From: Cunninghamella blakesleeana | Taxonomy: Eukaryota; Mucoromycota; Mucoromycetes; Mucorales; Cunninghamellaceae | Direction of reading: 5' to 3' | Assembly (NCBI GenBank): GCA_017871115.1 | Contig: JAFCIZ010000002.1 | Location: 3,803,501-3,867,500 of the forward strand | DNA: 64,000 bases | In this document: piece by piece, positions 17,720-60,700 of the stretch | Layout: each line of letters starts with the position of its first letter | How positions within the stretch are numbered: position 1 is the stretch's first letter | The notes under the pieces: model-generated | Seen by the model: only the letters and a program-made list of their open reading frames with translations | The model's database searches: none | What the model was told of the DNA's origin: nothing | Made by a program: the position numbers and the translations under genes

Positions 17720-20071
17720 TTATGTAGGTTGATCAAGATCCCATGCTAACATTGTCCATCTATTATTCTTTTTTATAATATGATTATCTTCCTCATGATC
17801 TATTAAATGATGTTGTTGTAATATAATTGGTTGTTGTTGAGCAAGATTAGCTGCAATTGGATACCAAGGAGCTGAAGGCCAATTAGGTGTAATTAGCGTC
17901 GCAGATTGTGGAGACTTTTGTAACCGTTGAAGTACTTGTAATATTAAATTCCAAGGTGGAGCTAAATATATTCTACCATTAATGTTTTTCCATGATATTG
18001 AAAATGCATTGGTTCCTGCTGCATCAGAATAATATTGATATGATATAAAATAAGTCGGAATTTTTGAATTTTTTGGTGAGGCAAACAAGTCTACTACATG
18101 AGGTCCCCAAAGGCTATCGAGCCAGTTAAAAGTACGTTGAGGAATAGACCATTCAATTTGATCATGGAGCTGTCTTGAAGGTGCATCAGCCGGATTAAGT
18201 TTTGAAGGTACATATAGAGTAGATAATTCAACATTATTACTAAAACAATATTTCCAAATGTCCATAGCTAAATTATTGAGTTTTTTAGAACGTGTACCAC
18301 CAAACTTATAAATATATGACATAGCTGATAAATTATCAATACATATTTGAAAGTGAAGATGACTATCGTTTATATGTAATTGTTTTTGGTGTTGCCATTG
18401 TATGGCTTTTTTAACTACAAGGAGCTCTTTATAATTTATGTGTTCATGTATTACGGAAGGTGACCATTTTCCACTTAGGTTACCATTATCCGAAACGATT
18501 CCCCATCCATCGTTTGAAGCATCAGTAAAAATTTGTAAAGGTGATTGTTGTATAATATTTCTTCCATTCCATTTTAATAATTGAGATATCCACCAAGTAA
18601 GCTCTTGTTTCATATGTTGATTAATTGGAACTAAATGATCGGTAGATTTTTTACGATACATATTAAGTTGTTGGATTAGTCGTCTAGTTCGAAATTTAGC
18701 CTGAATATTTCCCATAAAAGTTGCTAATGCTGTACCAATAAAACTTGATAATAATCTCCATGTTGTTGATGTTTTATATAGTAACTTATAGGCTAAACGT
18801 CTGATGGATCTTATCTTCTTGCCAGGCACCGTAAGTGTCATGTCCATTGTATTAATTGTCATACCTAGATGATCTATCTTTTGAGTTGGTGTAAGTTGCG
18901 ATTTTTTGTCATTGATTAACCATCCCATTTGCTTCATTTTATCATGAACCAGTTGAGTATGTAATATTGATTTTTCGCGCGTTGGAGCCATAATAAGAAT
19001 GTCATCCAGATATGCTGTGATTCTAATACCTTGTTTACGTGCCCAATGTAATAAAGGTTTAACTACCTTTGTAAATACCCAAGGTGATAATGCCAAACCA
19101 AAAGGTAAGACTTTATATTGATACAGTTGTTGTTTCCACATAAATCGTAAATAATTACGTGATGTTACATCAATAGGGATATGGTGAAAGGCATCTTGAA
19201 GATCAATGGATGTGAGATAATCATTAGGTTGAAGCAGAGAAGATATCATTTGTAAAGTTTCCATTTTGAAATGACGTTGAGGTAGGTATTCATTTAAACG
19301 ACGTAGATTGAGAACTGGTCTTAAACCTCCATCTTTTTTTGGTATAACGAAAAGATTTGAGATAAAGCCGAATGAACGATCGTTGACATGTTCAATAGCA
19401 TTTTTTAATAGTAGGGTGTTTATTTCTTTATCTATCACACTAATAGAAGTAGTCGAAAGTTGATTTATTCCATAAGGTTGATTAACTTTTAGTGTCAAAG
19501 GCGGTGGATAATTGAAATAAAGTTTGAATCCATTACGTATAACTTTAAAGAGCCATGGGTGTAAAGGTTCTTGTAAAATAGAAGACCATAAGGAAGCAAA
19601 TGAAGATAGACGCCCTCCTACTATATTTTCTGGTAATGCATTTTCAGTAAAATAATTAAAACCATTATTAGATACTGATGATGAATAGCTATCGTGTGTT
19701 AAACTAGAGTTGAAGGTGTTGTTATAATTTTTTCTATACGAACTTCGTCGTTTATTATTTATGTGATATGATGCTGAACACTTATATTTTAATCTTTTAG
19801 ATTTTTTATTTTTTGTAAACTGTTGTAAATAGCGATATATCTCTAAGTATTTATGAAATTCGTCGGGGGGAACTAAATAATTATCTTCCGAACTTCTAGT
19901 ATATATAGCTTTTCTTTTTCTCCTTAATAGTGCTGTGTTAAGAGTAGATTGTTTATCCCAAAAGTTAACAGTGGCTGAATTAGTTGATAACGGAGATTTA
20001 TTTAACTTATCAAGAAATTGTGGTAGCCAAGAAGGAATATCATTACTATTATCAACAGGATCTTTATTCAT
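17720..20071 (-). CDS. DIRS reverse transcriptase - RNase H - DAM-like methyltransferase polyprotein
   Basis: An intact ORF of 783 codons. The N-terminal 170 residues are basic and Ser/Asn-rich, possibly a short Gag-like part. Next comes the DIRS entry motif GGRLSSFASLWSSIL. The reverse transcriptase follows, with LRPVLNLRRLNEYL, SIDLQDAFHHIPI, LPFGLALSPWVFTKV and the active site AYLDDILIM (about residue 355). RNase H has FTDASNDGWG (about 517), ELLV, CIDNLSAMSYI and NPADAPSR. The C-terminal DIRS methyltransferase-like domain has VDLFASPKNSKIPTY (about 660), then YLAPPW and TPNWPSAPWYP. Catalytic residues appear intact. The protein would copy element RNA into DNA using the terminal and internal complementary repeats. 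Confidence 0.93.
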   Translation of the reverse strand: MNKDPVDNSNDIPSWLPQFLDKLNKSPLSTNSATVNFWDKQSTLNTALLRRKRKAIYTRSSEDNYLVPPDEFHKYLEIYRYLQQFTKNKKSKRLKYKCSASYHINNKRRSSYRKNYNNTFNSSLTHDSYSSSVSNNGFNYFTENALPENIVGGRLSSFASLWSSILQEPLHPWLFKVIRNGFKLYFNYPPPLTLKVNQPYGINQLSTTSISVIDKEINTLLLKNAIEHVNDRSFGFISNLFVIPKKDGGLRPVLNLRRLNEYLPQRHFKMETLQMISSLLQPNDYLTSIDLQDAFHHIPIDVTSRNYLRFMWKQQLYQYKVLPFGLALSPWVFTKVVKPLLHWARKQGIRITAYLDDILIMAPTREKSILHTQLVHDKMKQMGWLINDKKSQLTPTQKIDHLGMTINTMDMTLTVPGKKIRSIRRLAYKLLYKTSTTWRLLSSFIGTALATFMGNIQAKFRTRRLIQQLNMYRKKSTDHLVPINQHMKQELTWWISQLLKWNGRNIIQQSPLQIFTDASNDGWGIVSDNGNLSGKWSPSVIHEHINYKELLVVKKAIQWQHQKQLHINDSHLHFQICIDNLSAMSYIYKFGGTRSKKLNNLAMDIWKYCFSNNVELSTLYVPSKLNPADAPSRQLHDQIEWSIPQRTFNWLDSLWGPHVVDLFASPKNSKIPTYFISYQYYSDAAGTNAFSISWKNINGRIYLAPPWNLILQVLQRLQKSPQSATLITPNWPSAPWYPIAANLAQQQPIILQQHHLIDHEEDNHIIKKNNRWTMLAWDLDQPT

Positions 20072-20127
20072 TATGAGAATAGTACCCAGACGGTAGATAC
20101 CAGGTGCATAAGTACAAAGTTCGAACG

Positions 20128-20141
20128 AAAAGAAGATAAAG

Positions 20142-20184
<43 letters not shown>

Positions 20185-20286
20185 TTATATATTTTATTTT
20201 ATATTTTCTAATTTTAAACTCAGTGCAAAGTTCGATTTAATAAATAAAGAATGATTACAACAACCATTATCACAAACGAAGTGTAA
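20128..20286. repeat. DIRS terminal repeat (upstream end for the ORF)
   Basis: Inverted partner of 16417-16559. It starts AAAGAAGATAAAG next to a long A run and AT tract, and ends CAACAACCATTATCAC, followed by the end-specific AAACGAAGTGTAA. It lies 57 nt upstream of the ORF start, so it should contain the promoter. Confidence 0.85.
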
Positions 20287-24428: not shown

Positions 24429-24582
24429 GGTAATACTAAAAATCTAGGGAAACACTAATTATCAAGGAATAACTAAATCTATAAAAGAATATAATCAAGA
24501 ATACTTAAATTCAAGTTAAACAACTACTTTAAAAATATACAAACTTTATCATCCTATTTCAAAAACTTATCTTTATATTCCA

Positions 24583-25719
24583 ATGGAAAATCCACAAAAA
24601 TCAAGCATCGAGCAAACCGCGTTGGAAAATCATGATCATCACCATGATCCTAACCTTGCTGCTAAGCTGAAGCTTAATCTTTTAACTTTTTCAGGTTCTG
24701 ATGACGAAGACTTTCGTTATTTTGAAAAGTCCTTGGAAAATTATTTTAAATTATCTAGAGTTGGTATGGATAGAAGGGCAATTATCTTGAAGGTGCAATT
24801 GTCTGGTCCTGCTGAATTCTATTTTGAACAATTAGAACAAGATCCTAATATGGCTAATGATTATCAAAAATTGATGAATGCTTTAAGGGAAAAGTATGTC
24901 ACCAAAGAATTGATATTATCATACGAAATTGCACTTGGTACTATTAAACAAGGCAATGACGAAAGACCAAAGAACTTTTTGGCACGTATCCAAGAAATGG
25001 CAAGATTGGCACAATTGAAGGATGATCATATTATATTGATGAGATTCCGTGCTGGTTTAAAAGAAGAAATCAGAATGCACTGTATGGATCAAGGTGCTGA
25101 AACATTGAATCAATGGTATAACTATGCCGAAAATTGGTGGAAGACAAGACACATACAATCATTACCATCTGTATGTAATCTTACCAATGCTAATAGATTT
25201 GCTGGAGGCCATAAAAAGAAGTCAAATAATAATAATTATGGTGATTATAATGGCAATACATCATTAAATACAGCTGAACATGTTGATGGAGAATCTGCAT
25301 TCATGCAAAAGCTTTTAGGTCATATGGAAAAATTGATAAACACCAAATTGGAAGACAAAAGAGGCTCGTACAATAACCAAAGAAACAACAACAATAATAA
25401 TCGTAACAATCAATCATATAATGGACCTAATAATTATAACAGAAATAATAATCAAAAATACAGAAATAATCAGTATAACAATTATCGTCAATATAATAAT
25501 AATAACAACAACAATAATCATAATTATAACAATCAATATTTACCTGAAGATAATTATAATAACAGAGATTATTATCATCAAGGAAATCAAATGCAAAATA
25601 ACAATAATTATAATCCACAATATAATTATCCACAACAAAATCCTTATAATAATCCATCAAATAATAATCCACCAAATAATAATCAAAATAACACACCAGT
25701 TAATGGTTCAAAAAACTAA
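24583..25719 (+). CDS. gag: Retrotransposon Gag (capsid)
   Basis: 378 codons. Residues about 30-200 match the retrotransposon Gag domain: LNLLTFSGSDDEDFRYFEKSL, then VQLSGPAEFYFEQL, LMNALREKYV, ERPKNFLARIQEMARLAQL and ILMRFRAGLKEEIRMH. It has no CCHC zinc knuckle; instead the last 130 residues are extremely rich in Asn, Gln and Tyr with scattered Arg and Lys, probably the RNA-binding part. The ORF ends TCA AAA AAC TAA, where the final heptamer is a -1 slippery site (separate entry). The protein would form the particle that packages element RNA. Other-strand and other-frame ORFs here are shadows of the Asn-rich codons. Confidence 0.92.
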   Translation: MENPQKSSIEQTALENHDHHHDPNLAAKLKLNLLTFSGSDDEDFRYFEKSLENYFKLSRVGMDRRAIILKVQLSGPAEFYFEQLEQDPNMANDYQKLMNALREKYVTKELILSYEIALGTIKQGNDERPKNFLARIQEMARLAQLKDDHIILMRFRAGLKEEIRMHCMDQGAETLNQWYNYAENWWKTRHIQSLPSVCNLTNANRFAGGHKKKSNNNNYGDYNGNTSLNTAEHVDGESAFMQKLLGHMEKLINTKLEDKRGSYNNQRNNNNNNRNNQSYNGPNNYNRNNNQKYRNNQYNNYRQYNNNNNNNNHNYNNQYLPEDNYNNRDYYHQGNQMQNNNNYNPQYNYPQQNPYNNPSNNNPPNNNQNNTPVNGSKN

Positions 25720-28700
25720 ATAGGGCAATTGTTACAGATGGTCAATTGGGAATCCCTATTACAAAATCCATCCATCCAAATGATAATCAACTATATCAAG
25801 AAAATAATATGAATAAATATCACAACTATAATACACCAAATAATTCCAACATAAATTCACGATATTACAATACAAATACTTACGTCCCACATAACATAAT
25901 GGACAACCATAATAATTATTTATCAGCACAAGATCATTATTATCTTCAAAATATATTAGAAAGTGATCAAGAAATCAATGATTGCGATTTTAATGTTGCT
26001 GCAAATCCAAAACCACCAGTTGTTGAAAAAGCAATAAGAAAACCACGTACAAGGAAGACTATAGAAAAACCAAGTACATCAGCAGCTGCTACAAAATCTA
26101 TTCCACAACAAGTACAACAAGATATTCGTGATCATACACATGTTCCACCACAAAATAATCCATTTTTCCAAAACGTATTTTCACAGCATCCAAATCAAGA
26201 TGTAACTGAACCTTCTAAATCAAATAATAATGATATGATGGAAGAAGTACAAGTAATAAATGATAAAAGGAAAAAAGTATCCATTCAAGAACCACCTGTT
26301 GATAAAAGGAAGAAGACACCAAAAAGGAAATCACAACCATTACCAATAAATTATAATATTTCTGAAGAGATACTACATCAAAAGGCTAATATTAATGTTG
26401 GTGATCTTATAACTATATCTGCTCCATTAAGAAGAGAATTGATTACAGCTTGTAGACAATCAAGAATAAAAAGACCAGCTGATAAAGGTAAGGAAAAAGA
26501 TGTACAACTAAATTCTATTGATAATAGTGATGTTGTAACTACTGCTGCATATGCCGATATAATGGTGAATGATGTAAAAGTTACTGGATTAATTGATTGT
26601 GGAGCTGCAAGAGCTTGTATGTCCAGGGCAATGATGAAATCATTAGATCTAGAAATTGATGCACCATCTACAAGTATTTTTGTAATGGGAAATGGTACTA
26701 AACAACCTGCACTAGGTGTAATTCATGATGTTCCTATTACTGTTGGTGAAGGATTAACTATACCAATTGATGTTGAAGTATTACCAAAGTGTCCACAACA
26801 TATAGTATTAGGTACTAGTTGGTTGGATCATGCACAAGCAGTGATTAACTTTAAAACAGGTACTTTAAAGGTGACTTATAAACGCCGTACACAAGAAATT
26901 CCAATTACATATATAAAAACAAATGAACGTCCATATACATATCAACGTGTTACAAATGTTAAATACGAATTGGAACAGCCACAAGGTGAAGAAATAGCTG
27001 AAAATCTATCAAATACTAGTGAATCTGAAGATGATACTGATTCTAATGATGAAGATTCGATTGATGATGAAGAATCCACTGATAGTAATGAAGAAGATGC
27101 TGTACAAGATGATGAAGACTTTTATCTGATGGATGATCACGAAAAAAGTCCAGTAATCCAAACACGTCCAAATAAAGATGAAGGTACTATGATGATATTA
27201 AGTGGAAGTACTGGTTTATCAATACCACCTTATCATATTTGTCAAATCAACTATGCGATTGATGAAAATATAATTGTTCCATATTTTAAACGTCTTGACG
27301 AATTTTTGGACAAGCACGAAGACTTTGATGTAATCTTGGAAATTATAAATAAAACTGAAGACATGATGGAAATACCGCCAAACAACATACTAGGTGAATT
27401 CATAAATAGGAAACAATTTCCAATACAAAAGGATCCATATGTCGAATATACTGGTTATGATTTTGAAGACCACTATAGAGAATTACCACCTTCTCTGCTG
27501 GAAGATGATACTGAAGAAATTATACTTGATCCTAATATAAAAGGAAAAATCCAAATGGGTGATATACCTGAAGAATATAAAAAGAAATTTTATAAATTAA
27601 TACACCATTATCAAGATATCTTTGATTGGAATAATGATAAAATGGGAAAAACTACATTAATAGAACACGAAATAATATTAAAAGAAAATACATTACCTAT
27701 CAGACACAGACCATATAGATTGGGACCAAGTGAACAAGAATATTTGAAGAATGAATTAGACCGTCTTTGTGAATTGGGAATTATAAAACCTTCAAATTCT
27801 CCTTTTACTGCACCAATTATCTTAGTCAAAAAGAAGAATGGTGAATATCGTATGGTAGTTGACTATCGCAAACTGAATACACATACAAAAGTTGATTCAT
27901 ATCCATTACCACGTATTGATGATTTAATTGACGAACTTGGAAAATCAAAAATATTTTCTGCTTTGGATTTAAGATCTGGTTTCCATCAAGTTCCATTAAA
28001 AGAATCAAGTAAAGAATTAACTGGCTTTACAACTAAATTTGGTACTTATCAATATGAAATGCTGCCAATGGGATTGGTGAATAGTCCTGCTACTTTCCAA
28101 AGATTAATTGATATCTGTTATAAAGATTTATTGCACAGTAATCTAGTTGCATTTATTGATGATCTTAATGTACATTCTAAAAACTTGGATCAACACCTAA
28201 TTGACTTGGAAAGATTATTCGAATACACTAGAAGAGGTGGATTGGTGTTTAATATTGAAAAGTGTATATTCTTTAAAGATGAATTAAAATTTTTAGGCTA
28301 CATAATAACTGCTGAAGGAATCAAGACTGATCCAGATAAAATTGTTAAGGTTAAAGATTATCCAATACCGAAAACAATTAAACAAGTTAGAGGCTTTTTA
28401 GGTTTAGCTTCATATTACAGAAGATTTGTAAAAGGATTTGCTGCTACTGCTAGGCCATTACATGATCAAACAAAAACCAAAAAGAGAATACCATGGACAG
28501 AAGATACAACAAAAGCTTTTGAAAAATTAAAGGAAAATCTAATCAATGCTCCAATATTAAGAAGACCTGATTTTGATAAACCATTCATTGTTGTATGCGA
28601 TGCTTCACAACTAGGATTAGGTTCTATATTAACACAACTAGATGATGATGGTCGTGAACATCCAATAATATTTGCTAGTAGAGGATTGAAGAATAATGAA

Positions 28701-28955
28701 TTAAACTATGGTGCTACTAAATTAGAATGTCTTGCCTTGGTATGGAGTTTACAAATATTCAGACCGTATTTATTGGGAAAGAAGTTTACTGTTATATCTG
28801 ATCATTCGCCTTTAAGATGGTTAATTGAATCGCCAAAAGTTACAGGAATTGTTGCAAGATGGATCACATATTTAGCCGATTATGAATTTGAAATCAAATA
28901 TAGAGCTGGAAGAAAACAAGAAGCTGCTGATTTTCTTTCAAGACTAGGCTACTAA
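25704..28955 (+). CDS. pol: Pol: protease, reverse transcriptase, RNase H (made by -1 frameshift)
   Basis: The frame is open from 25704 and has no early ATG near the gag stop, so it should be made as Gag-Pol. Counting from 25746, a 270-residue linker is followed by the retropepsin at about 282 (GLIDCGAARACMS, then IVLGTSWLDH). The active-site triplet is Asp-Cys-Gly rather than the usual Asp-Ser/Thr-Gly. The RT has YRMVVDYRKLN, ALDLRSGFHQVPL, LPMGLVNSPATFQ and VAFIDDLNVHS (active site about 803; FIDD rather than YIDD). RNase H has VCDASQLGLGSIL (about 950), then LECLALVWSL and VISDHSPLRWL. The ORF stops right after RNase H (DFLSRLGY); integrase is not fused, which is unusual for this class. 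Confidence 0.93.
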   Translation, partial: WFKKLNRAIVTDGQLGIPITKSIHPNDNQLYQENNMNKYHNYNTPNNSNINSRYYNTNTYVPHNIMDNHNNYLSAQDHYYLQNILESDQEINDCDFNVAANPKPPVVEKAIRKPRTRKTIEKPSTSAAATKSIPQQVQQDIRDHTHVPPQNNPFFQNVFSQHPNQDVTEPSKSNNNDMMEEVQVINDKRKKVSIQEPPVDKRKKTPKRKSQPLPINYNISEEILHQKANINVGDLITISAPLRRELITACRQSRIKRPADKGKEKDVQLNSIDNSDVVTTAAYADIMVNDVKVTGLIDCGAARACMSRAMMKSLDLEIDAPSTSIFVMGNGTKQPALGVIHDVPITVGEGLTIPIDVEVLPKCPQHIVLGTSWLDHAQAVINFKTGTLKVTYKRRTQEIPITYIKTNERPYTYQRVTNVKYELEQPQGEEIAENLSNTSESEDDTDSNDEDSIDDEESTDSNEEDAVQDDEDFYLMDDHEKSPVIQTRPNKDEGTMMILSGSTGLSIPPYHICQINYAIDENIIVPYFKRLDEFLDKHEDFDVILEIINKTEDMMEIPPNNILGEFINRKQFPIQKDPYVEYTGYDFEDHYRELPPSLLEDDTEEIILDPNIKGKIQMGDIPEEYKKKFYKLIHHYQDIFDWNNDKMGKTTLIEHEIILKENTLPIRHRPYRLGPSEQEYLKNELDRLCELGIIKPSNSPFTAPIILVKKKNGEYRMVVDYRKLNTHTKVDSYPLPRIDDLIDELGKSKIFSALDLRSGFHQVPLKESSKELTGFTTKFGTYQYEMLPMGLVNSPATFQRLIDICYKDLLHSNLVAFIDDLNVHSKNLDQHLIDLERLFEYTRRGGLVFNIEKCIFFKDELKFLGYIITAEGIKTDPDKIVKVKDYPIPKTIKQVRGFLGLASYYRRFVKGFAATARPLHDQTKTKKRIPWTEDTTKAFEKLKENLINAPILRRPDFDKPFIVVCDASQLGLGSILTQLDDDGREHPIIFASRGLKNNELNYGATKLECLALVWSLQIFRPYLLGKKFTVISDHSPLRWLIESPKVTGIVARWITYLADYEFEIKYRAGRKQEAADFLSRLGY
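25710..25757 (+). promoter_or_regulatory. -1 programmed ribosomal frameshift site between gag and pol
   Basis: The gag frame reads TCA AAA AAC TAA, so A AAA AAC (25710-25716) is a perfect X XXY YYZ heptamer touching the stop codon. Slipping back one base puts the ribosome in the pol frame, which is open from 25704. After a 5-nt spacer (TAAAT) a stem can form: AGGG CAATTG (25722-25731) pairs with CAATTG (25743-25748) and CCCT (25754-25757), with a 5-nt bulge. Site, spacing and stem all fit the known -1 frameshift architecture. Confidence 0.85.
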
Positions 28956-29177
28956 AATAACAAAATGCAAAAATATAAATACATATATATATATATATAA
29001 AAAAAAAAAAAAATATATATAATTACTTACCACTCGACCAAGTTTTGCTGAAGTCGTAAAAAGCTGCATACATACAATTATAATTGATCAACATAACTAA
29101 TCAGTATTATCAAAACAATATTCAACAATATATACAAGAATCTAAATACAAATAATATACAGCAAATATCAGTAAAA
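28956..29177 (+). other. Spacer between pol and integrase ORFs
   Basis: 222 nt without an open frame: an (AT)n plus A14 tract, then A-rich sequence up to the integrase ATG. An AG at ATATCAG just before TAAAAATGG could serve as a splice acceptor. An A-rich leader could alternatively support internal initiation. Neither is shown by the sequence. Confidence 0.5.
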
Positions 29178-30491
29178 ATGGAACAAAGCAAAATTGATTT
29201 AATAAAAAATTATTTATCAACATTAAAATTACCTGATAACATCACCAAAAAGGAACAGAATTATTTACAAAAACATTCCCACAAATTTATTATACAGAAC
29301 AACGAATTATATCGATATAATATCAACTTGCAGACGATAAGGAAAGTTCTGAATAAAGATCAAGTATCGGAAGCATTATACATGCATCATCAACATCCTT
29401 TAGGAGGTCATATGGGGTATCATAACACCTTGTTTAAACTTGCTAATCATTATTACTGGGAAAATATGACAAAAGATGTACAAAATTATGTCAAAAGATG
29501 CAGTAGGTGTCAAACTACAGGTCCTGCTAAACATAACGAATTGTTACACCCAGTTCCAACTTCATCCAAACCTTTCTTCCAATGGGCATTAGATGTCAAA
29601 CACATCTCTACTTCTAAAAATGGATTTAGATATATAGTTGCAGGAATTGATTATCTAACGAAATGGGTTGAAGCTCGTGCATTAAAATTTCAAACGGCAG
29701 CTGAAATAGCATTATTTATTTATGAAGATATTATTTGTCGACATGGTGCTCCACACATAATAATTACAGATAATGGAAAACCATTTATAGGTGATTTAAT
29801 TAAAAAAGTTTGTTTCCAGTACAGAATCCATCATAAAACTATAAGTGTTGGGAATTCGCAAGCAAATGGGTTGATAGAAAAGTTTAATTCCACTTTAGGC
29901 GCCATTCTAAAAAAGTTAAATAATAAAGAAAAACAAGTTTGGGATCAATATTTACCTTCCGTTTTATTTGCATATCGTACAATTAAACAAAAATCAACAG
30001 GTTATTCCCCTTTTTATTTAACTTACGGATACGAAGCAAAGACGCCTTATGACCTATTCATGGATATACCTTTAGAAATAAATTCTGCAAGTTTCCAAAA
30101 CCAGTTAAGAATACGTGCTGCAAAAGAATTATTATCACTAAAACAAATAAGAGAAGATGCTGCAGATTTCATCCAAAAATCACAAAGGAATCAAAAGAAG
30201 GCTATTGATAAAAAGATTAATAATCAAAAGAAGGAATGGAAGCCGCCTTTTAGAATTGGTGATATTGTTATGATGTATGTTGGAAGAACATCTAACTCTT
30301 GGGGTGGTAAAATATCTGATAACTGGAAAGGCAAATATGTTATTCATCAAAGTTTAGGAAAAGGTACATACTTGATAAAAGAATTTAACGCGACAAATAC
30401 TAAATTAAGAAGAATACACGGGAATAAATTGAAGTTATTGCAGATGCCTGATGTATTTTGGATTGATTTTGCTAAAAGAACAATCGTATAA
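29178..30491 (+). CDS. Retrotransposon integrase, encoded as a separate ORF
   Basis: 437 codons with its own ATG. The N-terminal zinc-binding HHCC motif is present (His residues in HHQHPLGGHMGYHN, then CSRCQ). The catalytic core has Asp139 (WALDVKHIS), Asp198 (IIITDNGKPF) and Glu234 (ANGLIEKFNSTL), giving the D,D-35-E spacing. After it come YLPSVLFAYRTIKQKSTGYSPF and, near the end, a GPY/F-like module (WKGKYVIHQSLGKGTYLI). No chromodomain is visible. In nearly all Ty3/gypsy elements integrase is the C-terminal part of Pol. Here it is separated by a stop and 222 nt, and lies in a different frame from pol. Confidence 0.93.
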   Translation: MEQSKIDLIKNYLSTLKLPDNITKKEQNYLQKHSHKFIIQNNELYRYNINLQTIRKVLNKDQVSEALYMHHQHPLGGHMGYHNTLFKLANHYYWENMTKDVQNYVKRCSRCQTTGPAKHNELLHPVPTSSKPFFQWALDVKHISTSKNGFRYIVAGIDYLTKWVEARALKFQTAAEIALFIYEDIICRHGAPHIIITDNGKPFIGDLIKKVCFQYRIHHKTISVGNSQANGLIEKFNSTLGAILKKLNNKEKQVWDQYLPSVLFAYRTIKQKSTGYSPFYLTYGYEAKTPYDLFMDIPLEINSASFQNQLRIRAAKELLSLKQIREDAADFIQKSQRNQKKAIDKKINNQKKEWKPPFRIGDIVMMYVGRTSNSWGGKISDNWKGKYVIHQSLGKGTYLIKEFNATNTKLRRIHGNKLKLLQMPDVFWIDFAKRTIV

Positions 30492-35900: not shown

Positions 35901-37488
35901 GATTCCTTTTTGATGGCGACTAATGATGCAATCCATGTTGGTACATTGGATAATATTAGAAAGCTACACCATACTAAAATCTCTCTTAATAAAAAAATGG
36001 CAAGACGAATCGCTTACCATGAAGAATCTCAATCTATTATACTTGGTACTGCTGAATTGATTAGAAATCCAGATAATGGCCTTGAAAAATCTATAGGATG
36101 GATTAGTTTATACGATGCAAATACATTCAAAGGTGAATTGATATAGGTAGATAAACATAAAGTTATTTATGACCTTATGCTTATAGACCTATTTAAATTT
36201 TATATTTACACTTTGTGTATTAAATAGAAATGGATACACACGGATTGATGGAAAATGAATTAATTGAAAGTATTTGTATAGCAAGAGTTTTTGATAAAGA
36301 ACAGTTGTATATATTTGTTGGAACAGCCATTACAACTAACCCAAAAGAAAGTGGACGTATTATCATGTATAAAATCAAAAGCGATAAAAAGTTATATATG
36401 ATAGATAATGTATCTGTTCCTGGTGTTGTATATTCTATAAAATCTTATATGAATAGTGTAATTGCATCAGTTAATGGATCTGTAAGTTTATGCTTGTATA
36501 ATATATTATAATATTATGTAATTATATATAATAATAATAAACAATAGTAAAAGTAATTTTTTTCTAATATATGAATATATTATTTTTATATATTTTTTCT
36601 TTCCACCATCACTTTAGATTTACTTTCTCAACTCGATAGAAAATGAAGTAAATCATGATGAAAAATTGAACTTCTTGCAAAAAATGGATTCAAAAGTCGC
36701 TATTCTAGATATAGATACAAATCAAAATTTAATTTTAACTGGCGATATACTACATTCAATGTCCTTGTTGAAGTTAGAAAATGCCAATTTTCCAACGGTG
36801 ACTTTAATAGCAGAAGATAAACAATCTCATTCTATGACAGCCGTGAAATTACTAAAGAATGATATTTGCTTAGGTGCTGATGGAAATTATAACTTAATTG
36901 CTATGAAGCAGCGATACATTGCTAAAAAAAATGAAAAACCACATGCATCATCTATATTAAGTGTTATTGGTCAATACCATCTTGGCGAATTAATTAATAA
37001 AATGCAAGAAGGTAAAAATATTAAATTGAAATGTGTAAATATAAATAATTATATAAATGTAAATAAATTTATAAATATAACATATATACTAAAAAATCAA
37101 ATTATTATTATTATTATAAATAGGATCATTAGCAGATAAAATTAATTTTATCCATAGAGGACCGAAATCATGGACAATGACTTATGTTACAGTCGATGGT
37201 GCAATTGGTATTATAAAGGAAATCACAGAAGATGATTATGAGTCATTACTCGCGGTACAGCAAAGATTAGCAGCTATATTGCCATGTATTGGTAATTTTA
37301 GTCATACGACTTGGAGAAGTGTTCAATATAGTAACAAAATAAGCGAAGCAGAAAATTTTCTCGATGGCGACCTACTTGAAAGATATTTAAATTTACCAAT
37401 GCATCAAAAAATCGAAGTAGTAAAAGATTTACCTTGTAATACAGAACAATTGGAAATTAAAATACGTAGTTTATCACAATTAAGATAA
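32943..37488 (+). CDS. DDB1: DDB1-like UV-damaged DNA-binding protein / CUL4 adaptor
   Basis: Thirteen exons, 1117 aa, all phases consistent: 32943-33046, 33174-33282, 33395-33708, 33794-34093, 34175-34301, 34393-34581, 34662-35164, 35257-35477, 35550-35749, 35859-36132, 36228-36481, 36618-37011, 37124-37488. It starts MNFYAYITKLQPPTAVNHAV, like DDB1 (MSYNYVVTAQKPTAVN...). Further matches are LLFILTEKQTYFVIRYDA, MVCCSGVNNSGSLRVIQNG, GNGTVMHYKI, IGWISLYDANTF and YHLGELINKMQEGSL. The C-terminus is LAVQQRLAAILPCIGNFSHT, then FLDGDLLERYLNLP, as in the third beta-propeller and helical end of DDB1. Length matches human DDB1 (1140 aa). The protein links substrate receptors to the CUL4 ubiquitin ligase in DNA repair and replication control. 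The homologous CPSF160 and SF3b130 families fit less well at both ends. Confidence 0.92.
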
Positions 37489-48490: not shown

Positions 48491-51400
48491 TTATCGAAAT
48501 GGGATCCAGGATGAAGCACGTCTTTCTTGTTTGTCAGTAGCCGAGATTTCACTATACAGAATAAGGAAGGTTTGTGATTTAGGTACGTAATTTATGGTGA
48601 CATTTTTTTTATTATTTTTTGGTTAATTAGAGAATTTCCTTTTGCATAATTAAAATTTACCTATCAACAACGGCGCCACTACCTCTTAACGGTTTGGCTA
48701 TACGGCCAAAGTTAATTGCCATAGCACTTTGTGATTTTTGTGTCTTCATTTTTTCTAATCTTTCTCTAACAGCTTGTAATTGTGCTTCGAACCTATATAA
48801 TTTAAAAAAAAAAAATTAATAATAATAATAATAATAATAATTAAAAAAAGGTATTAATAAAGGAGTTGAAAGGAGATTGTCGTAATATTATTTCTTAATA
48901 TATATAATTATTATAATGATTTCCTTTTTTATAATAAACTTTTTTTTAAAAAAATAAGAATAATTACTTTTGTGCCTGTGAGTATAAATTATCTTGAGCT
49001 TCTTGCAACATGGATTCTAAACTTTCAATACGTTCATTCCGAGTATACAATTTACGTTCTGACACTGCAGCTTCCTTTTTAAGATGAGAGTTTTGTTCCA
49101 CCAACTTTGTAATACATACATTTTTTTAAAAAATATGATGCAGAAAAAAAATGATGTCAGAAATTAGAAACTAGTACATTTTTCGATGTCTGTTATATGT
49201 ATATATATATATATATATTACCTGCTTTTGAACATTAGTTAATTGTTCTAAATTACGTTCTAAAAAGGCCATCTTTTTTTGTTGGGCCTTGTTATTTGAT
49301 GTTTTCAAGATACGGTTATATTGCTCACGACTTTCTTCTAAAGAGATTTCCAATTCTACTACTTTTTCACAACGAGATTGTAAATCGCGCATTAATCCTT
49401 TCTTCATGACATCAAAGTAAGCCAATTGTTCGGCCATTGATTTGCGTACTTTTTCAATATCTTTTTCTTTTTCACGTACAGCTTCAATTGTCTTTGGTTG
49501 AGAATCTAATCTTGTCTATTTATTGTTAATAAAATAAAGAATAAAAATATACCTGGTTATGATATTGCTTTTTTCTTTCTTTTTCTTCTATTATTATTTT
49601 TACTATTTACCTGTAAATTTTCATTTGAAATCTTAAGTTCTCTTATAAGAGTATCAAGTGTTTTATACTCTTCGTCTTTTTTAACAAGTTCATTTTTTAA
49701 CTCATCAATTTCTTTTTGTTGTTGAGTTTTTTTGATAGCGTGTTCATTTTCTAATTTAGTCTATTTTTTAATTTTCATTTAATATATACATAATTTTTTT
49801 AAAATAAAATAAAATAAAATAAAAAAGTCAGCTTTAATTTATATATGTATATGCAGGTAACTAAATATGGTATATGTCAATTATGATTTTTTTTTCTTAT
49901 TTTTTTTTTTTTTACCTTAAGTTCAGTAATGGTATCTGTTAATTCAACATTACGATTCATTGACACTTCTTCATCAGCAATAGCTTTTTCTAATATTTCT
50001 TCATATTCTACTTCTAAGAGAGCAAGTCTTCCTTCTAATTCTGTACGTTTGGTGATCAGTGTTTCTCTATCTGTTTGAAGACCATTAATAATAGTTTCTT
50101 GTTCATTTACTAGAATTCTATTCTGTTGTACTTGCTCACGTAGTTGTTGAATGGCTTCTTCACTGAGATTAGCTACAGAATCAGGGTTTAATCTATCTAA
50201 AGCATCTTTCATTTGTTGTTCCTTTGAAGCGATATCATTGTCCTAATCATTTATAATATAACATATATATAGTTTAATATAATTATATATTTTTCTTTTT
50301 CTTTTTTTTTAACAAAAATTACCATATCTAAAGTAGCCATCATTTCTGCCATTTTATCAGCTTTCTTTTTAGATTTAGTTTCTTCTTCTGCATCCTTTTG
50401 TGAAACCCTTAATTCTGATAAAGTTTTCCTGTGTTGTTCTATTTGTAAGGATAACTCTTCATTTTCTTTACGTAATGATTCAATAGCTGTTGTACTCTCT
50501 TGACTCTGTTTTGATGCTTTTTCAAGTTGTGATTTCATATCATTGTACTCTGTCGAAATAGATGAATTATCTGTTGACATTGCTTTTTTATTTTCCTGTA
50601 ATACGCTAAGTTCTTCTTGTAATGATTCTAAAAGTTTTTCACGATTGGCTAATTCAGTTTCCTTTTCATATTAAACAAGGTATAAGAAAAAATTATAGTT
50701 TAAAACAAAATTACCATCAGTTATATATATATAAATAATAATTTTTTTTTCACTTACCTTTTCAGCAATTTGATCCATTAATGTATTTTCTCTTTTCAAG
50801 AATTCTTCACGTTCATCTTTTTCAAGGGTAAGGCCAGGTGTTGCAGGTCTCGAATCATCGGGAAGAGTAGGTTTGTAAGAGGTAGGGGTAGGAGTTCTAG
50901 GTGAAGTGACATCACCATTAGCATTACTATTGTTACTGCCTTTTGAAGAAGCTTTATCCATAGAAGCCCATTGTAATTCAGGAACTATACCACCAGTACG
51001 CCATGTATTAAGTTCATGTTCCAATGCTTGAATGTATTGTTGAAATGTAACTGTATCGCTTTTTACTTTTTTCAATAAAGCTTTTAATTCAGCAGGTGAT
51101 AAATCAGCATTAACTTTAGCTTTATTTTTAATAGTTTTTGCACGAACACCAAATCGAAGTGTTGAGATGGTTTCGGCTTCATTATAAGAGGATGGCGAAC
51201 AATTGATAATCAAGGTTGTACGAGAATTACCACCAAGAGATTCTTGTAAAATACGAGTTAATTTGGAATCACGATAAGGAACATGGCTTGACTAATGATA
51301 GTTGTAATAAAAATATATACTTTTATAAGTACTACTGTGTTTTTCCCATTTTATTTATTTTATTTTATTTTATACAAAATAATAATATATTATTATTATT

Positions 51401-52877
51401 ATTATTATTATATTTACCTTTCCATCAGTTAATGAATTAATGACCATACCTAAAGCAGTCAAAGATTTATTGATTTTTTTTGCTTCTTCTAGAGTTTGGC
51501 CTGATGCACCAGTTTTACCTACTTTTTCAGAACCAGCTAAATCCACAAGATAAAGTTTACCACTTTTAGCTGCTCCCGTATCTAAATTTTTTTGAGTAAT
51601 GGTCACTAATACAATGGAATGACTTCTAGAACTTTCAGCATTCATATCTGTTATTTTTAAAGTATAAATATAAATATAAATAGAGTTGTCATTATTATAT
51701 TAGAAATATTTAAATATTTTATTATCATCACTATGATTAAACTTACTTGTATAAGCTACAACACGATTATTGCCACCACTTTTCATCACTTCATAAACTT
51801 CTTCAGTAGATGAAACATAAACTTCTAATAAGCCTTTTACATAAACACCTTTAGATTTATCTTCATGAATAGGTAAATTATCCTGAGAGGCTATTTATTA
51901 TAAATAAAAATAAAATAAAATGGAATAAAATAAAAATAGAATTAATGAAATTAGATAAATGTAAATAATGAATGTATGATCGATAATCGGACGAAAATGT
52001 GATGGCATATTTTTTATTTTTATTTTTTTGGTGTTTCAAGAATAATATCAAACTTACGATTTAAAAGATCACGCACTTTTTCCATATAAATTTCCATATA
52101 AGACACTTTAACTGTAAATTCCATATTTGCAGGTGCAAGAATAATGCTTTGAAAAATTTGTTCAACAATACGAGGAATAATACCTTTATTCTTTTCATCT
52201 TCAATATCTGACCCCTATTATCATAATAATATGTTGAAATTGAAATAATTTTAAATAATATGATATAAATATGTATAAATATTTGAACCATCATTATCAC
52301 TATTATAATTATTAGTTTATATTTACCATCATTGTAAAAGTTTTACCACTACCAGTTTGACCATATGCAAAAACGGTACCATTATAACCAGCAACCACAT
52401 CTGACAAATAAAATAAAATAAAAAATCATATGAAAATAAGAATATATGTATGATGATAAAACTTTTTTTTTTTTGATACTCTATTTTTTTTTTTTTTTTC
52501 TAAACACACTATATATTAATATCTGTTTCTTTTACCATCAACAATGGATTTAATAGAATATTCAAATATTTCTTGTTGAGCTGTATTACTACCAAAGACT
52601 TTATCAAAAGAAAAATTTGGCTGGGATTCTTTCCCCTAATATATATATTAAAGCACGAAAATATATATGAAAATCATGAAACACCATCAATCACCGTTCC
52701 TTTTTTTATTTTCAGGCACTTTTTTTTTTTTTAATATAGTAAAATATAGTATTTTACCTTCACTACTACTGATGTTCCTTCTTCATTAATATCCACAATA
52801 GGCACACCGCCTTCTTTAATTTCAAGTTTATTTTGAGGTCGAAAACGACATACTACTTTAATATTGTTTCCTGACAT
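48491..52877 (-). CDS. Kinesin-1 heavy chain (conventional kinesin, NKIN type)
   Basis: Fourteen exons on the minus strand, 932 aa, in frame: 52758-52877, 52536-52635, 52327-52400, 52058-52214, 51747-51890, 51418-51647, 50758-51291, 50323-50661, 49916-50242, 49611-49760, 49222-49515, 48968-49104, 48661-48792, 48491-48551. The motor has IKVVCRFRP, the P-loop [14 protein letters not shown] (about 84-97), switch [12 protein letters not shown], switch [17 protein letters not shown] and the neck entry [20 protein letters not shown]. Next is the fungal-kinesin neck [21 protein letters not shown] long coiled-coil stalk follows. Near the end, [12 protein letters not shown] is the IAK autoinhibitory motif of kinesin-1 tails. 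Length matches Neurospora NKIN (about 930 aa). It drives plus-end vesicle transport in hyphae, opposite to the dynein pathway served by the dynactin gene nearby. Confidence 0.96.
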
Positions 52878-53734
52878 GGTTCTTGAATATTTATTATATA
52901 AAAAAATAAAAGATGGAAAATATATTAAAAGATGAAGGAAATGTGAATTTATAAATAACTGATAACGTGTTCCAATATGATTATTGTTTTTAAAAAAGGT
53001 GATATAATAAATATATATATCTTTATTCTATTATTTATTTTATAATTGTAATTATATGTAATATGATCATTATATATTTCTATATACCTTATGTAATGTC
53101 AATAAATAAATTAGATAAAAAACAAGAGAGAAAAAAGTGAAAATTTAAAGTGTGGAAAAGAAATAAAAAATTTAAAAGCGCTCCCAGCCAAAAAAAAAAA
53201 AAAAAAAAAGATAAAAATTAAACTCAGTCAAAGTGAAAAAAAAAAGGAATAGTTATCTTCCTCGATATTAAAATGTATCAAAATATGAAAAGTGAAAGTA
53301 CATTTTTTTATGCATTAACTTATTTCAATCCTTTAATAAAAGATAAAAAAAAATTATGGTGATATTTCAGATCTTTTTTATCAAGCAAAACAAAAAAAGT
53401 AATTTTCCAAATAGATAATGTAGCCGATTGGCTTCTTTTCATATGTCCATTATCATTCAAACCTTACCAAAAGTAAAAAATAAGAGACGACCGGAGTATA
53501 AAAACCCATGAGATTTATTGGTTAAACATTTCCCCAATGAGTCATTATTTGATCAGAAAAAGATTTTTTTTGATTTAAAAGAGTGATTTTTTTTTTTAAT
53601 TTCATTTCTTTTCTTTCTCTTTATTATACTTTATTTATTGAAAAAAGAATACTTATTATATAACTTCTTTTTTCATTTTTACTCTTTTTTTTATTAAAAA
53701 ACTTATATACAACAACAGACGTAAAGTCTAGCTT
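52878..53734. promoter_or_regulatory. Divergent promoter region, kinesin-1 / CPA1
   Basis: 857 nt between two outward genes. Contains a perfect Gcn4/CPC1-type palindrome (53537-53545, separate entry), a partial site ACTCAGTCA near 53222-53230, A-rich tracts and a T/C-rich stretch just before the CPA1 transcript leader. Confidence 0.65.
53537..53545. promoter_or_regulatory. Gcn4/CPC1-type binding site
   Basis: ATGAGTCAT, the exact symmetric site bound by Gcn4-family bZIP activators, about 190 nt upstream of the CPA1 uORF. CPA1/arg-2 genes of other fungi are under general amino-acid control, so the position makes sense. The binding itself is inference. Confidence 0.65.
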
Positions 53735-53914
53735 ATGTATATTCACGCTTTCGAAAAGTGCTCAGCCGATTATATTTGCGATCAAAGTAAGTCTTATATC
53801 TTTTTTATTATCAAGCAATATGGATAATACAAGTTTCATTTTAATAATCCATGTTATTTGTTTTTCTTTTTTTTTAAAAAAAAATAGTCTGGAAATCCTC
53901 TGGTAGTTTCTAAA
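53735..53914 (+). CDS. Arginine attenuator peptide (AAP) uORF of CPA1, split by an intron
   Basis: Two exons, 53735-53786 and 53889-53914, with a 102-nt GTAAGT...ATAG intron, encode 25 residues and a stop. The first 17 codons read MYIHAFEKCSADYICDQ; the intron splits the next codon, and the rest reads IWKSSGSF. It aligns without gaps to fungal AAPs (Neurospora and yeast, core QDY(L/I)SDH(L/I)W): Asp12, Tyr13, Asp16 and Trp19 fall at the same positions. In those fungi the nascent AAP stalls the ribosome when arginine is high and blocks translation of the downstream CPA1 ORF. The uORF ATG is 333 nt upstream of the CPA1 ATG. An unspliced transcript would not encode the Ile-Trp-Lys part of the peptide. 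Confidence 0.93.
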
Positions 53915-54067
53915 TTAACTCAACTTATACAAAAAATCTCTTTATTTGTTTATCAAAAAGTCTTAATTTATTTTTTATCTCCTAAAACCCCCAAGAAAAT
54001 AGAACCCTACTTTTTTTTTCTTTCTCTTATTTTATTTATTTACATATCTTATTATTAAAAAACAATC

Positions 54068-55306
54068 ATGTCTCTCCTCAAGTCTATTCAACTCACTCTT
54101 CGTGCTCAAACCAAGCAACAACAACAATTTTTTACTCGTGGATTTGCTACAAATGTTGGCACTCCTGCAGCCCTTAAATTAAAATCTGGTCAAATATTTA
54201 ATGGTACCTCCTTTGGTTCTGATCAATCTAAATTTGGTGAAGCTGTCTTTACCACTTCTCTTGTTGGTTATCCTGAATCAATGACCGATCCTTCTTATAC
54301 TGGCCAAATTCTTGTTTTCACTCAACCTTTAATTGGGAACTATGGTGTCCCTGGCCAAGATAAAGATCAATATGGTCTTTCTAAATATTTCGAATCTGAT
54401 AAAATTCAAGTACAAGGTATTGTGGTAAATGATTATGCCACCCATTATTCCCATTGGACTGCTGTTGAATCCCTTGGCGAATGGTGTAAACGCTTTGATG
54501 TCCCTGCCATTAGCGGTGTGGATACTCGTGCCATTACTCAATTATTACGTGATCAAGGTTCTACTTTAGCTCAATTAGCTGTTGGTGATGATGCTCACAA
54601 AGATAAACATGACGAATTCCCTGATCCTAATACTGAAAACCTTGTTGCCAAAGTCTCTACTAAAGTTCCTCTTCACTATCATCCCGAAGGTGACGTCAAA
54701 ATTGCCGTCATTGATTGTGGTGTCAAACAAAATATCTTACGTTGTTTAACTGAACGTGGAGCTCAAGTTACTGTCTTACCTTGGAATTATGATTTTAATC
54801 AAGTCAAAGACGAGTTTGATGGTTTATTTATTTCTAATGGCCCTGGTAGTCCTGCTACTTGTACTGAAACCATCCAAAACTTACGTGTTGCTATTGATAC
54901 CTGGAATAAACCTATCTTTGGTATCTGTATGGGTAATTTGCTTTTGGGAATGGCCGCTGGTTTAGATATGTATAAGTTGCCATTTGGTAATCGTGGTCAT
55001 AATCAACCTGCTCTTAATGTTGATACTGGACTTTGCTATATCACTTCTCAAAACCACGGCTATGCTCTCCAAGATAATGTCATGCCTAAAGGCTGGAAGA
55101 AATTATTTGTTAATGCTAATGATGGCTCAAATGAAGGTATTCAACATGAATCCAAACCTATCTTCTCAGTACAATTCCACCCTGAAGCTAAAGGTGGTCC
55201 CCAAGACACTGAATATTTATTTGATGACTTCTTAGGTCATGTTCGTGCTATGAAATCTTCAAACTACCATTCTATTGAACAGCAACAACAAGTTGCTTTT
55301 GCTTGA
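54068..55306 (+). CDS. CPA1: Carbamoyl-phosphate synthase, arginine-specific small (glutaminase) subunit
   Basis: Single exon, 412 aa. The start MSLLKSIQLTLRAQTKQQQQ with basic and hydroxyl residues and no acids is a mitochondrial presequence. The carA-type N-terminal domain follows (ALKLKSGQIFNGTSFG, GYPESMTDPSYTGQILVFTQ, IGNYGVPG), then the class I glutamine amidotransferase domain. The nucleophile elbow reads PIFGICMGNLLLG: the catalytic Cys is there, but the residue normally Gln (GxCxGxQ) is Leu. The second triad part FSVQFHPEAKGGPQDTEYLF supplies His and Glu, and ITSQNHGYAL is typical. The enzyme releases ammonia from glutamine for the large subunit in arginine synthesis. Codon use is more C/T-rich at third positions than neighbours, suggesting high expression. 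Regulated by the AAP uORF just upstream. Confidence 0.95.
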   Translation: MSLLKSIQLTLRAQTKQQQQFFTRGFATNVGTPAALKLKSGQIFNGTSFGSDQSKFGEAVFTTSLVGYPESMTDPSYTGQILVFTQPLIGNYGVPGQDKDQYGLSKYFESDKIQVQGIVVNDYATHYSHWTAVESLGEWCKRFDVPAISGVDTRAITQLLRDQGSTLAQLAVGDDAHKDKHDEFPDPNTENLVAKVSTKVPLHYHPEGDVKIAVIDCGVKQNILRCLTERGAQVTVLPWNYDFNQVKDEFDGLFISNGPGSPATCTETIQNLRVAIDTWNKPIFGICMGNLLLGMAAGLDMYKLPFGNRGHNQPALNVDTGLCYITSQNHGYALQDNVMPKGWKKLFVNANDGSNEGIQHESKPIFSVQFHPEAKGGPQDTEYLFDDFLGHVRAMKSSNYHSIEQQQQVAFA

Positions 55307-57785: not shown

Positions 57786-60700
57786 ATGGTATATAAATAT
57801 ACGTTTATACTATGTATTGTATTATTCTTTTTATTTAATAATGGTGTATTAGGTAAAATAATCATAGTTATAATAATAATAGTAATAATTATGGTGGATA
57901 TTTTATTTTATTAAATATAAACAAAAGGAGAATTATTTGAAACTAAACTATTTAATATATATATATATGTATATATATGTATGTATGTATGTATGTGTAT
58001 TTCTTATAGCTCATAGTTTAAATAATCGACGATTGTTAAGAATTGAAGCTTTAAACAAAGTCAATGTAGATATTGCACCACGGCCTGATACTTTTTTCCA
58101 AAAAAGAGATATATCAGCTAATAAACACTATAAACCTAGAGTGCAATCTATTGAACATGACGATATTTTACGATTTACTTTAAATGCATATAATCAAACA
58201 CATCATATTCATCTTGTTCCTAATCATGATCTCTTTCATCCCAATGCTGTAGTTAATACAGAGGGTGTCGATAAGCCTTTAAATCATAAAGAGTATCGTG
58301 TCTATCGTGGTTATGTCGTTGATTCTACTTTATCCGAAAAACGCTGGCAAGAAGATCAAGTTGGCTTATGGCGTGATCATGAAACATTAAATAATCGTGG
58401 CGATGGTGGTATTTTAGGTTGGGCAAGATTTATTATACGTCATGATATAAAGTAAGATTAAAGTTTTTTTTGTTTTTTTTTGTTTTTGCCAAGGATGGCT
58501 GAGTATTCTTAAAAAGAAACAGCAAGCTTAGATATACAAATAATAACCATATATTTTTATTTTTATTTTTTTTTATTTTATTTTTATAATTTCTAAATAT
58601 AGACACGATTTGGAATATCCTATATTCGAAGGTGCTTTTATGACAAATGGTGATACTTATCATGTTAAATCTTCAGAAACTTATCAAAGAGTAAAAAGAT
58701 CGGATGATGCAGAACTACACCATGCATACCGATCGCCTTCATCTAATGTACATATGGTCATCTATCGGGATTCAGACACTGTAGTTGTTCCTGTTATGAA
58801 ACGGGATGGTACCATTGCTTATGGTGATAGTTGTGCGGTGGATAAACTATTATATAACAACAATCAAAAATCTTATTCATTTGATCCTGCCTTATCATTA
58901 ATATCATCATCATCAATAAAAGAAAATGAAAAGGAATTGGATACACATTTATCAAAGTTAAATTATGATGCTTTTAATGGAATTCATAATATGGCTATGA
59001 TGGGTTCATTATCCAAACGTGCTCCAACTGGTTGTCCAACCACTAAAAAGAGTAAGTTGATTAAAAATAAAATAGCAACAATGGTAATAATACAACTAAA
59101 TACAAAGGGAAAATATTTACTTTTTTATTAATTTTATTTATCAATAGTTAATTATATGGGAGCAGCAGCAGATTGTACTTATACAAAATATTATCAATCA
59201 GATACTCAAGCTCGTATGCAAATCATCAATGACTGGAACACCGCTTCAGCAGTTTATGAAAAACAAATGAATATTGGACTTGGATTAATCAACATTACAG
59301 TAATGAGTTCTACATGTCCTACTACACCTGATCCTAATAACATCTGGAATCAAGGTTGTTCTAATGCTTATGATATTACTACTCGTCTTTCTGATTTTAG
59401 TCGATGGAGAGCAAAAACACCTGATGATGGGGCTGGTTTATGGCATTTGATGACGAATTGTCCGTAAGTTTTTTTTTTTTTTAAATAATATTAATCATGG
59501 AAGAATTGTAGATAGAGAATATCATTACTGATATCATTATATATATATATATGTATATACATAATCATAGAACTGGTGCTGAATTAGGTGTTGCTTGGGT
59601 AGGTGCTCTTTGTACTACAGATGTCCAAGAGCAACGTACTGGTGGCCAAACTCAATATGTTTCCGGTACTGGTGTATCTTCTGTTGGTAATTATATAAAT
59701 AAAATATAAATTTATATGATGATTTTTTTTAAATATGCATTTATTGATCACTTTGAACTTTTTTTTTTTCTTTTCTCTCTATAGTCCGGGATGAATGGAA
59801 GGTGGTTGCACATGAAATTGGTCATGGTTTTGGTAAAAAAAAAGAATAATAATAATTGATACATCTCCGAAAGAAAAAGTACCGAATATCCGTTTTAATA
59901 TTATATACCTTTTTCTTTCTTTTTTTTTTTTTTTATTCATGTAGGTGCTAAACACGATTGTACAGCAGATACTTGTAGATGTAACGGTGGTCCTTGTGAT
60001 TGCTGTCCTCTTAGTAGTACGCAATGTGATGCTGGTGGTACTTTTATTATGAATCCTGTTAATAATGCTTCTGCGGGCGAATTTAGTCCTTGTACTTTAG
60101 ATACTATTTGTCAACAATTCCCAAGTAAAGGCCAATGCCTTAAAAGTAAGTATATGTACATTTTAATCTAGTGCTTAATATATATTTATATAGTCGTTTG
60201 ATTTAATTCATTTTAAATCTCTTTATTACTATATTATATTATATTTTTATTTTTTTAGATCCTGGAACAATACCTACTACTGGATTACAAATGTGTGGTA
60301 ATGGTATTAAAGAAGCTGGGGAAGACTGTGATTCCAACGGCCAAGATACACCTTGTTGCGATGCTAAAACATGTAAATTTAAACCTGGTGCTAAATGCGA
60401 GTAAGTATAGTGATCTATATAATAAGATAATAATGATTTTTTGTTATTATTTGATCACTCATCACTTATATTTTTATTCGTTTTAATTTTAATTAGTGAT
60501 TATAATGATTTATGCTGCAACAACTGTCAAATTAGACCTGCAGGTTATGTATGTCGCCCAGCTACTGGAAATTGTGATACTCAAGAAGTATGTAGCGGAA
60601 GCACGGGAGATTGTCCTAACGATTCATTTAAATCTGATGGTGAACAATGTGGAGAAGGGCTTCAATGTGCCTCAGGTCAATGTACATCAAGAGATTTACA

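Follow-up and report, generated by a model that had tools for sequence, protein, structure and literature searches.

In the locus considered here, a short upstream open reading frame (uORF), divided by a predicted intron, precedes a gene for the small subunit of carbamoyl-phosphate synthase (CPSase), which raises the question of whether this leader encodes an arginine attenuator peptide (AAP) and of what the intron contributes to the control of the gene. The whole stretch of DNA analysed, referred to below as the window, is 64,000 nucleotides long. We consider it very likely that the CPA1 mRNA of this Cunninghamella-like Mucorales fungus carries a fungal AAP uORF, that the intron within it is constitutively removed, and that the encoded peptide stalls ribosomes in an arginine-dependent manner.

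Identity and setting of the CPA1 gene

The protein encoded downstream of the uORF matches TIGR01368, the glutamine-dependent carbamoyl-phosphate synthase small subunit, with 449 bits (cut-off 307.35). Its closest relatives among the matches listed are those of Cunninghamella echinulata (98% identity), which belongs to the Mucorales within the Mucoromycota, and of C. blakesleeana (92%); by these relatives the host is placed in the Mucorales, bearing out the early-diverging fungus proposed in a preliminary description made from the DNA sequence. The assembly (31.9 Mb, 12 contigs) also contains a CAD/URA2-type gene on contig C11, in which exons for the amidotransferase and for the synthase occur side by side, as well as another large-subunit gene on contig C2. 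In view of these two genes, the small subunit encoded alone in the window is best taken to be the arginine-specific CPA1. In an unspliced reading of the 700 bases preceding the ATG of the CAD/URA2 gene, six ATG frames are listed and none is AAP-like.

An AAP-like motif is present in none of the 120 CPA1 homologues listed (the best 120 of 7,999 scored), all proteins without leaders, a result expected if the uORF is separate and which says little either way. A query fusing the AAP to CPA1 gave two candidates for residues 1–40, none at E <= 10. The CPA1 search recovered no relative from viral_contigs and 44 loci from genome_contigs, every one titled as bacterial or archaeal in its record; a query alignment of 16 sequences, drawn from the window protein and the 120 listed homologues, recovered one locus from viral_contigs (L053; 54% identity, residues 34–389). 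The search of solved structures returned three matches to one unrelated protein, at E values of 0.22–0.37.

The remainder of the window contains several other features. A kinesin gene on the minus strand (approximately 49500–52900), with at least eight short introns and a Kinesin domain in the exon tested, is transcribed divergently from CPA1. Open frames resembling an LTR retrotransposon occupy 24520–30491 on the plus strand, and the two frames tested within them (25704–28955 and 29097–30491) contain aspartyl protease, reverse transcriptase, RNase H and integrase domains. An 838-aa frame on the minus strand (17720–20236) combines a reverse transcriptase domain with a Dam-methyltransferase match below the cut-off, which suggests a DIRS-like element. 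Plus-strand open frames at 57889–59131 resemble, by eye, the N-terminal region of ADAM-type metalloproteases, and the frame tested among them (58547–59131) has no match in Pfam.

Coordinates of the CPA1 gene and of the features found or predicted upstream of it, given as positions in the window
Feature	Position	Strand	Description
ATGAGTCAT palindrome, presumed promoter	53537..53545	+	RTGASTCAY match
AAP uORF, exon 1	53735..53786	+	52 nt; codons 1–17 and first base of codon 18
Predicted spliceosomal intron	53787..53887	+	101 nt, phase 1, GTAAGT...AATAG
28-codon uORF (MDNTS...)	53820..53906	+	present only in intron-retained RNA; expected to repress CPA1
AAP uORF, exon 2	53888..53913	+	remainder of codon 18 (Ile), Trp19, Lys20 ... 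Phe25, stop TAA
AUG-free stretch, uORF stop to CPA1	53914..54067	+	154 nt
CPA1, carbamoyl-phosphate synthase small subunit	54068..55306	+	412 aa; uninterrupted ORF 54068–55303 plus stop

The upstream frame and its peptide

In the predicted spliced RNA, the uORF (ATG at 53735, TAA ending at 53913) encodes MYIHAFEKCSADYICDQIWKSSGSF, a product of 25 amino acids which carries the AAP core D12-Y13-D16-W19, in the arrangement Asp-Tyr-x-x-Asp-x-(Ile/Leu)-Trp near the C terminus, and its length of 25 codons and its place before the gene for the arginine-specific CPSase small subunit are those of an AAP uORF. The TAA of exon 2 is the predicted stall site. Read without splicing, the frame from 53735 gives a 30-aa peptide that departs from the AAP sequence after residue 17 and has no AAP core. 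The main claims of the preliminary description stand: a 25-residue peptide lies in the CPA1 leader; an AAP-type uORF precedes CPA1, with core, length and position all in agreement; Asp12, Tyr13, Asp16 and Trp19 are kept and, together with Met1, are the residues that do not vary among the three AAPs compared; and an intron is predicted within codon 18. Its coordinates are also right, apart from the intron end, which it had placed at 53888 rather than 53887.

As a single genome was examined, a likeness arising by chance has to be weighed, in which an ordinary, sequence-independent uORF would lower CPA1 translation constitutively. When the peptide was shuffled 100,000 times, 11 and 12 shuffles scored at least as high as the real peptide against each reference alone (about 1 in 10,000), the best reaching 58 and 45 compared with 47 and 39 for the real peptide, reference by reference. 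Since shuffled peptides can equal or exceed the real score in this way, the strength of the match is to be sought in the core, the length and the place combined, not in the score against any single reference. These weigh against chance. When the leader (53546–54067) was shuffled 20,000 times with its dinucleotide composition preserved, the core (D[YF][ILVM]xDx[ILVM]W, in ORFs of <=45 codons with one GT...[CT]AG intron of 45–160 nt allowed) never appeared; the real sequence yields 14 candidate ORFs as opposed to a mean of 6.6 per shuffle. Among 7,565 candidate ORFs on both strands of the window, either short or spliced once, a single one contains it, and this is the uORF directly before CPA1, at the place expected of an AAP. 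The AAP-like length, the weak start codon and the AUG-free stretch before CPA1 speak in the same direction, and we regard a fortuitous likeness as highly improbable.

In the 31.9-Mb assembly as a whole, a pattern built on the AAP site itself (the exon-1 core followed by GTAAGT) occurs once. The uninterrupted core pattern, in an unspliced reading, has one match elsewhere, at C2:132473, which we count as chance because it lies antisense to an open frame of 524 aa and its own 82-aa frame contains no Met before it.

The leader intron, start codons and predicted control

The intron can be judged against those of the adjoining kinesin gene, where eight of the nine junctions tried were solved, giving introns of 80–167 nt, all of the form GTAA-...AG and beginning with GTAAAA, GTAAAT, GTAAGT or GTAATT; two of these eight junctions had two solutions, of which the GTAA- one was kept, so the set is biased to that motif. 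Beside these eight, the AAP intron (GTAAGT, 82% A+T) is typical in its GT-AG ends, its size and its 5' site. A YTRAY branch-point motif lies 5–60 nt from the 3' end in four of the nine introns, that of the AAP included, and is non-discriminating. A scan of 255 nt starting 25 nt inside the intron lists seven AGs, of which that at 53887 alone places the core in register; the other six, considered as alternative 3' splice sites, never do. The fold of the intron RNA is unremarkable (z = -0.76). A GTAAGT 5' site, an ordinary length and the lack of any unusual structure are read most simply as constitutive splicing.

The preliminary description had instead raised the possibility that splicing is regulated, the cell producing transcripts with and without a working stalling peptide as a second layer of control over arginine synthesis. 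In this reading an AAP which is itself real would be switched by its intron, through the ratio of spliced to unspliced transcripts, in response to arginine or stress. The position of the intron would suit such a switch, since it splits the peptide core, so that retention removes Trp19, and no other intron was found from the uORF start through to the CPA1 stop. The features that favour constitutive splicing tell against this, as does the effect expected of retention: in intron-retained RNA a further uORF would begin at an ATG at 53820, which has A at -3 and G at +4, and another ATG lies at 53851. Since the first of these starts has such a context, unspliced mRNA should come under stronger repression instead of escaping it, irrespective of arginine. 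The proposal finds no support in the ordinary size and splice sites of the intron or in the uORF, expected to be repressive, that its retention would add, and we consider a regulated switch of this kind unlikely. Unlikely, too, is a reading in which the common ancestor of Mucoromycota and Dikarya already had an AAP and, in Cunninghamella-like fungi, intron retention turns the arginine-sensing leader into a constitutively repressed one; if this were true, splicing would gate arginine synthesis a second time, but with the sign reversed relative to the preliminary description.

The ATGAGTCAT palindrome, which we take to be a Gcn4/CPC-1-type site, has its end 190 bp before the AAP start. The RTGASTCAY pattern has two matches in the 64 kb (53537–53545 and 37238–37246), both of them perfect ATGAGTCAT sites, against 1.18 expected, which is weak alone; the proximity of the first to the AAP start hints that general amino-acid control may also act on CPA1. 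The same sequence occurs at 2549–2557 of locus L002 (G000 C11) in the CAD/URA2 gene, by eye in its first intron, probably by chance.

The start codons differ in context: the uORF ATG at 53735 has C at -3, which is weak, and the CPA1 ATG at 54068 has A at -3 and is the stronger by this position. As far as sequence goes, this is the pattern of an inefficient uORF start permitting leaky scanning, and the predicted spliced leader from 53546 to CPA1 contains no ATG besides that of the uORF. In yeast CPA1, the uORF start context is likewise poor and leaky scanning underlies control, according to the accessible part of PMC7969011, in which arginine causes the nascent AAP to stall ribosomes at the uORF stop and the D13N change abolishes the stall; the accessible part of PMC11550727 is a further source for the AAP mechanism. 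Yeast D13 corresponds to D12 here.

From the weak uORF start, the stronger CPA1 start and the 154 nt free of AUG, we infer a mechanism like that in the accessible part of PMC7969011, with splicing, stalling, arginine dependence and decay drawn from known AAPs, whereas the ORF, the likeness of its peptide, a sequence compatible with splicing, the contexts of the two starts and the identity of CPA1 are seen directly in this locus. The intron of 101 nt would be constitutively removed from the CPA1 leader. At low arginine, scanning ribosomes would mostly leak past the weak uORF start, allowing CPA1 to be translated; at high arginine, ribosomes having made the AAP would stall at its stop codon and block others from reaching CPA1, and the stall would probably expose the mRNA to nonsense-mediated decay. 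A transcript retaining the intron would encode a non-AAP peptide together with a second, stronger uORF, and would represent an off state.

Relation to known arginine attenuator peptides

The locus suggests that this feedback switch for arginine exists in an early-diverging fungal lineage as well. Should the peptide stall ribosomes as predicted, nascent-peptide arginine sensing would reach the Mucoromycota and would likely be older than the Dikarya, and a well-studied eukaryotic arrest peptide would gain a distant homologue with natural substitutions at residues 15 and 17. Its intron would provide a clean natural test of whether the splicing state can gate an arrest peptide. Scans for uORFs that ignore splicing will miss such elements, because the unspliced frame lacks the AAP core. 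Neither an AAP in Mucoromycota nor an intron inside an AAP appears among the literature matches listed, which comprise titles and abstract openings, most subscription papers lying outside the coverage.

The uORF of Neurospora crassa arg-2 (24 aa) lies before the same gene, has a similar length and carries D12, Y13, D16 and W19 under the same numbering. An ungapped comparison with its sequence gives six identities at offset 0; the peptide described here has Cys15 for Ser, Gln17 for His, Ile18 for Leu and Lys20 for Arg, and is one residue longer. The uORF of Saccharomyces cerevisiae CPA1 (25 aa) gives eight identities, ungapped, at offset 1, with I-W-K kept; it differs by this one-residue shift and is not known to contain an intron, whereas the uORF here is split by a predicted one. 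The gap-free alignment claimed in the preliminary description is exact for Neurospora, but for yeast it holds only after the shift, and MAFFT set one gap when the three AAPs (window, yeast and Neurospora) were aligned.

Both references have Ser at residue 15 and His at residue 17, so that Cys and Gln at these places could reflect a once functional AAP in decay, its stalling peptide lost through an unspliced intron or through drifted residues. Decay would be expected to lose some of the D, Y, D and W common to both references after Met1, yet all four are present, and the reading frame continues unbroken through the predicted junction; we regard such decay as very improbable, and a functional AAP remains the reading that we prefer.

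AAPs are not confined to the Ascomycota, in which the preliminary description calls them best described; they extend to Basidiomycota, as exemplified by Cryptococcus, in which an AAP uORF precedes the CPA1 homologue (CND01050). According to the accessible part of PMC7049704, this uORF is conserved and ribosome-occupied, and a 5-fold rise in an upf1 mutant links it to nonsense-mediated decay. It can be likened to the present element by this description, as a non-ascomycete AAP uORF on the same gene, although the host here belongs to the Mucoromycota.

A more distant parallel is provided by the arginine-responsive uORF of Toxoplasma gondii ApiAT1, which, in the accessible part of PMC8370653, has a partial AAP likeness and a critical Asp. 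In contrast with the uORF described here, it is 33 aa long and precedes an arginine transporter, not a CPSase gene, and a function shared with the AAP would, in the view of its authors, represent convergent evolution.
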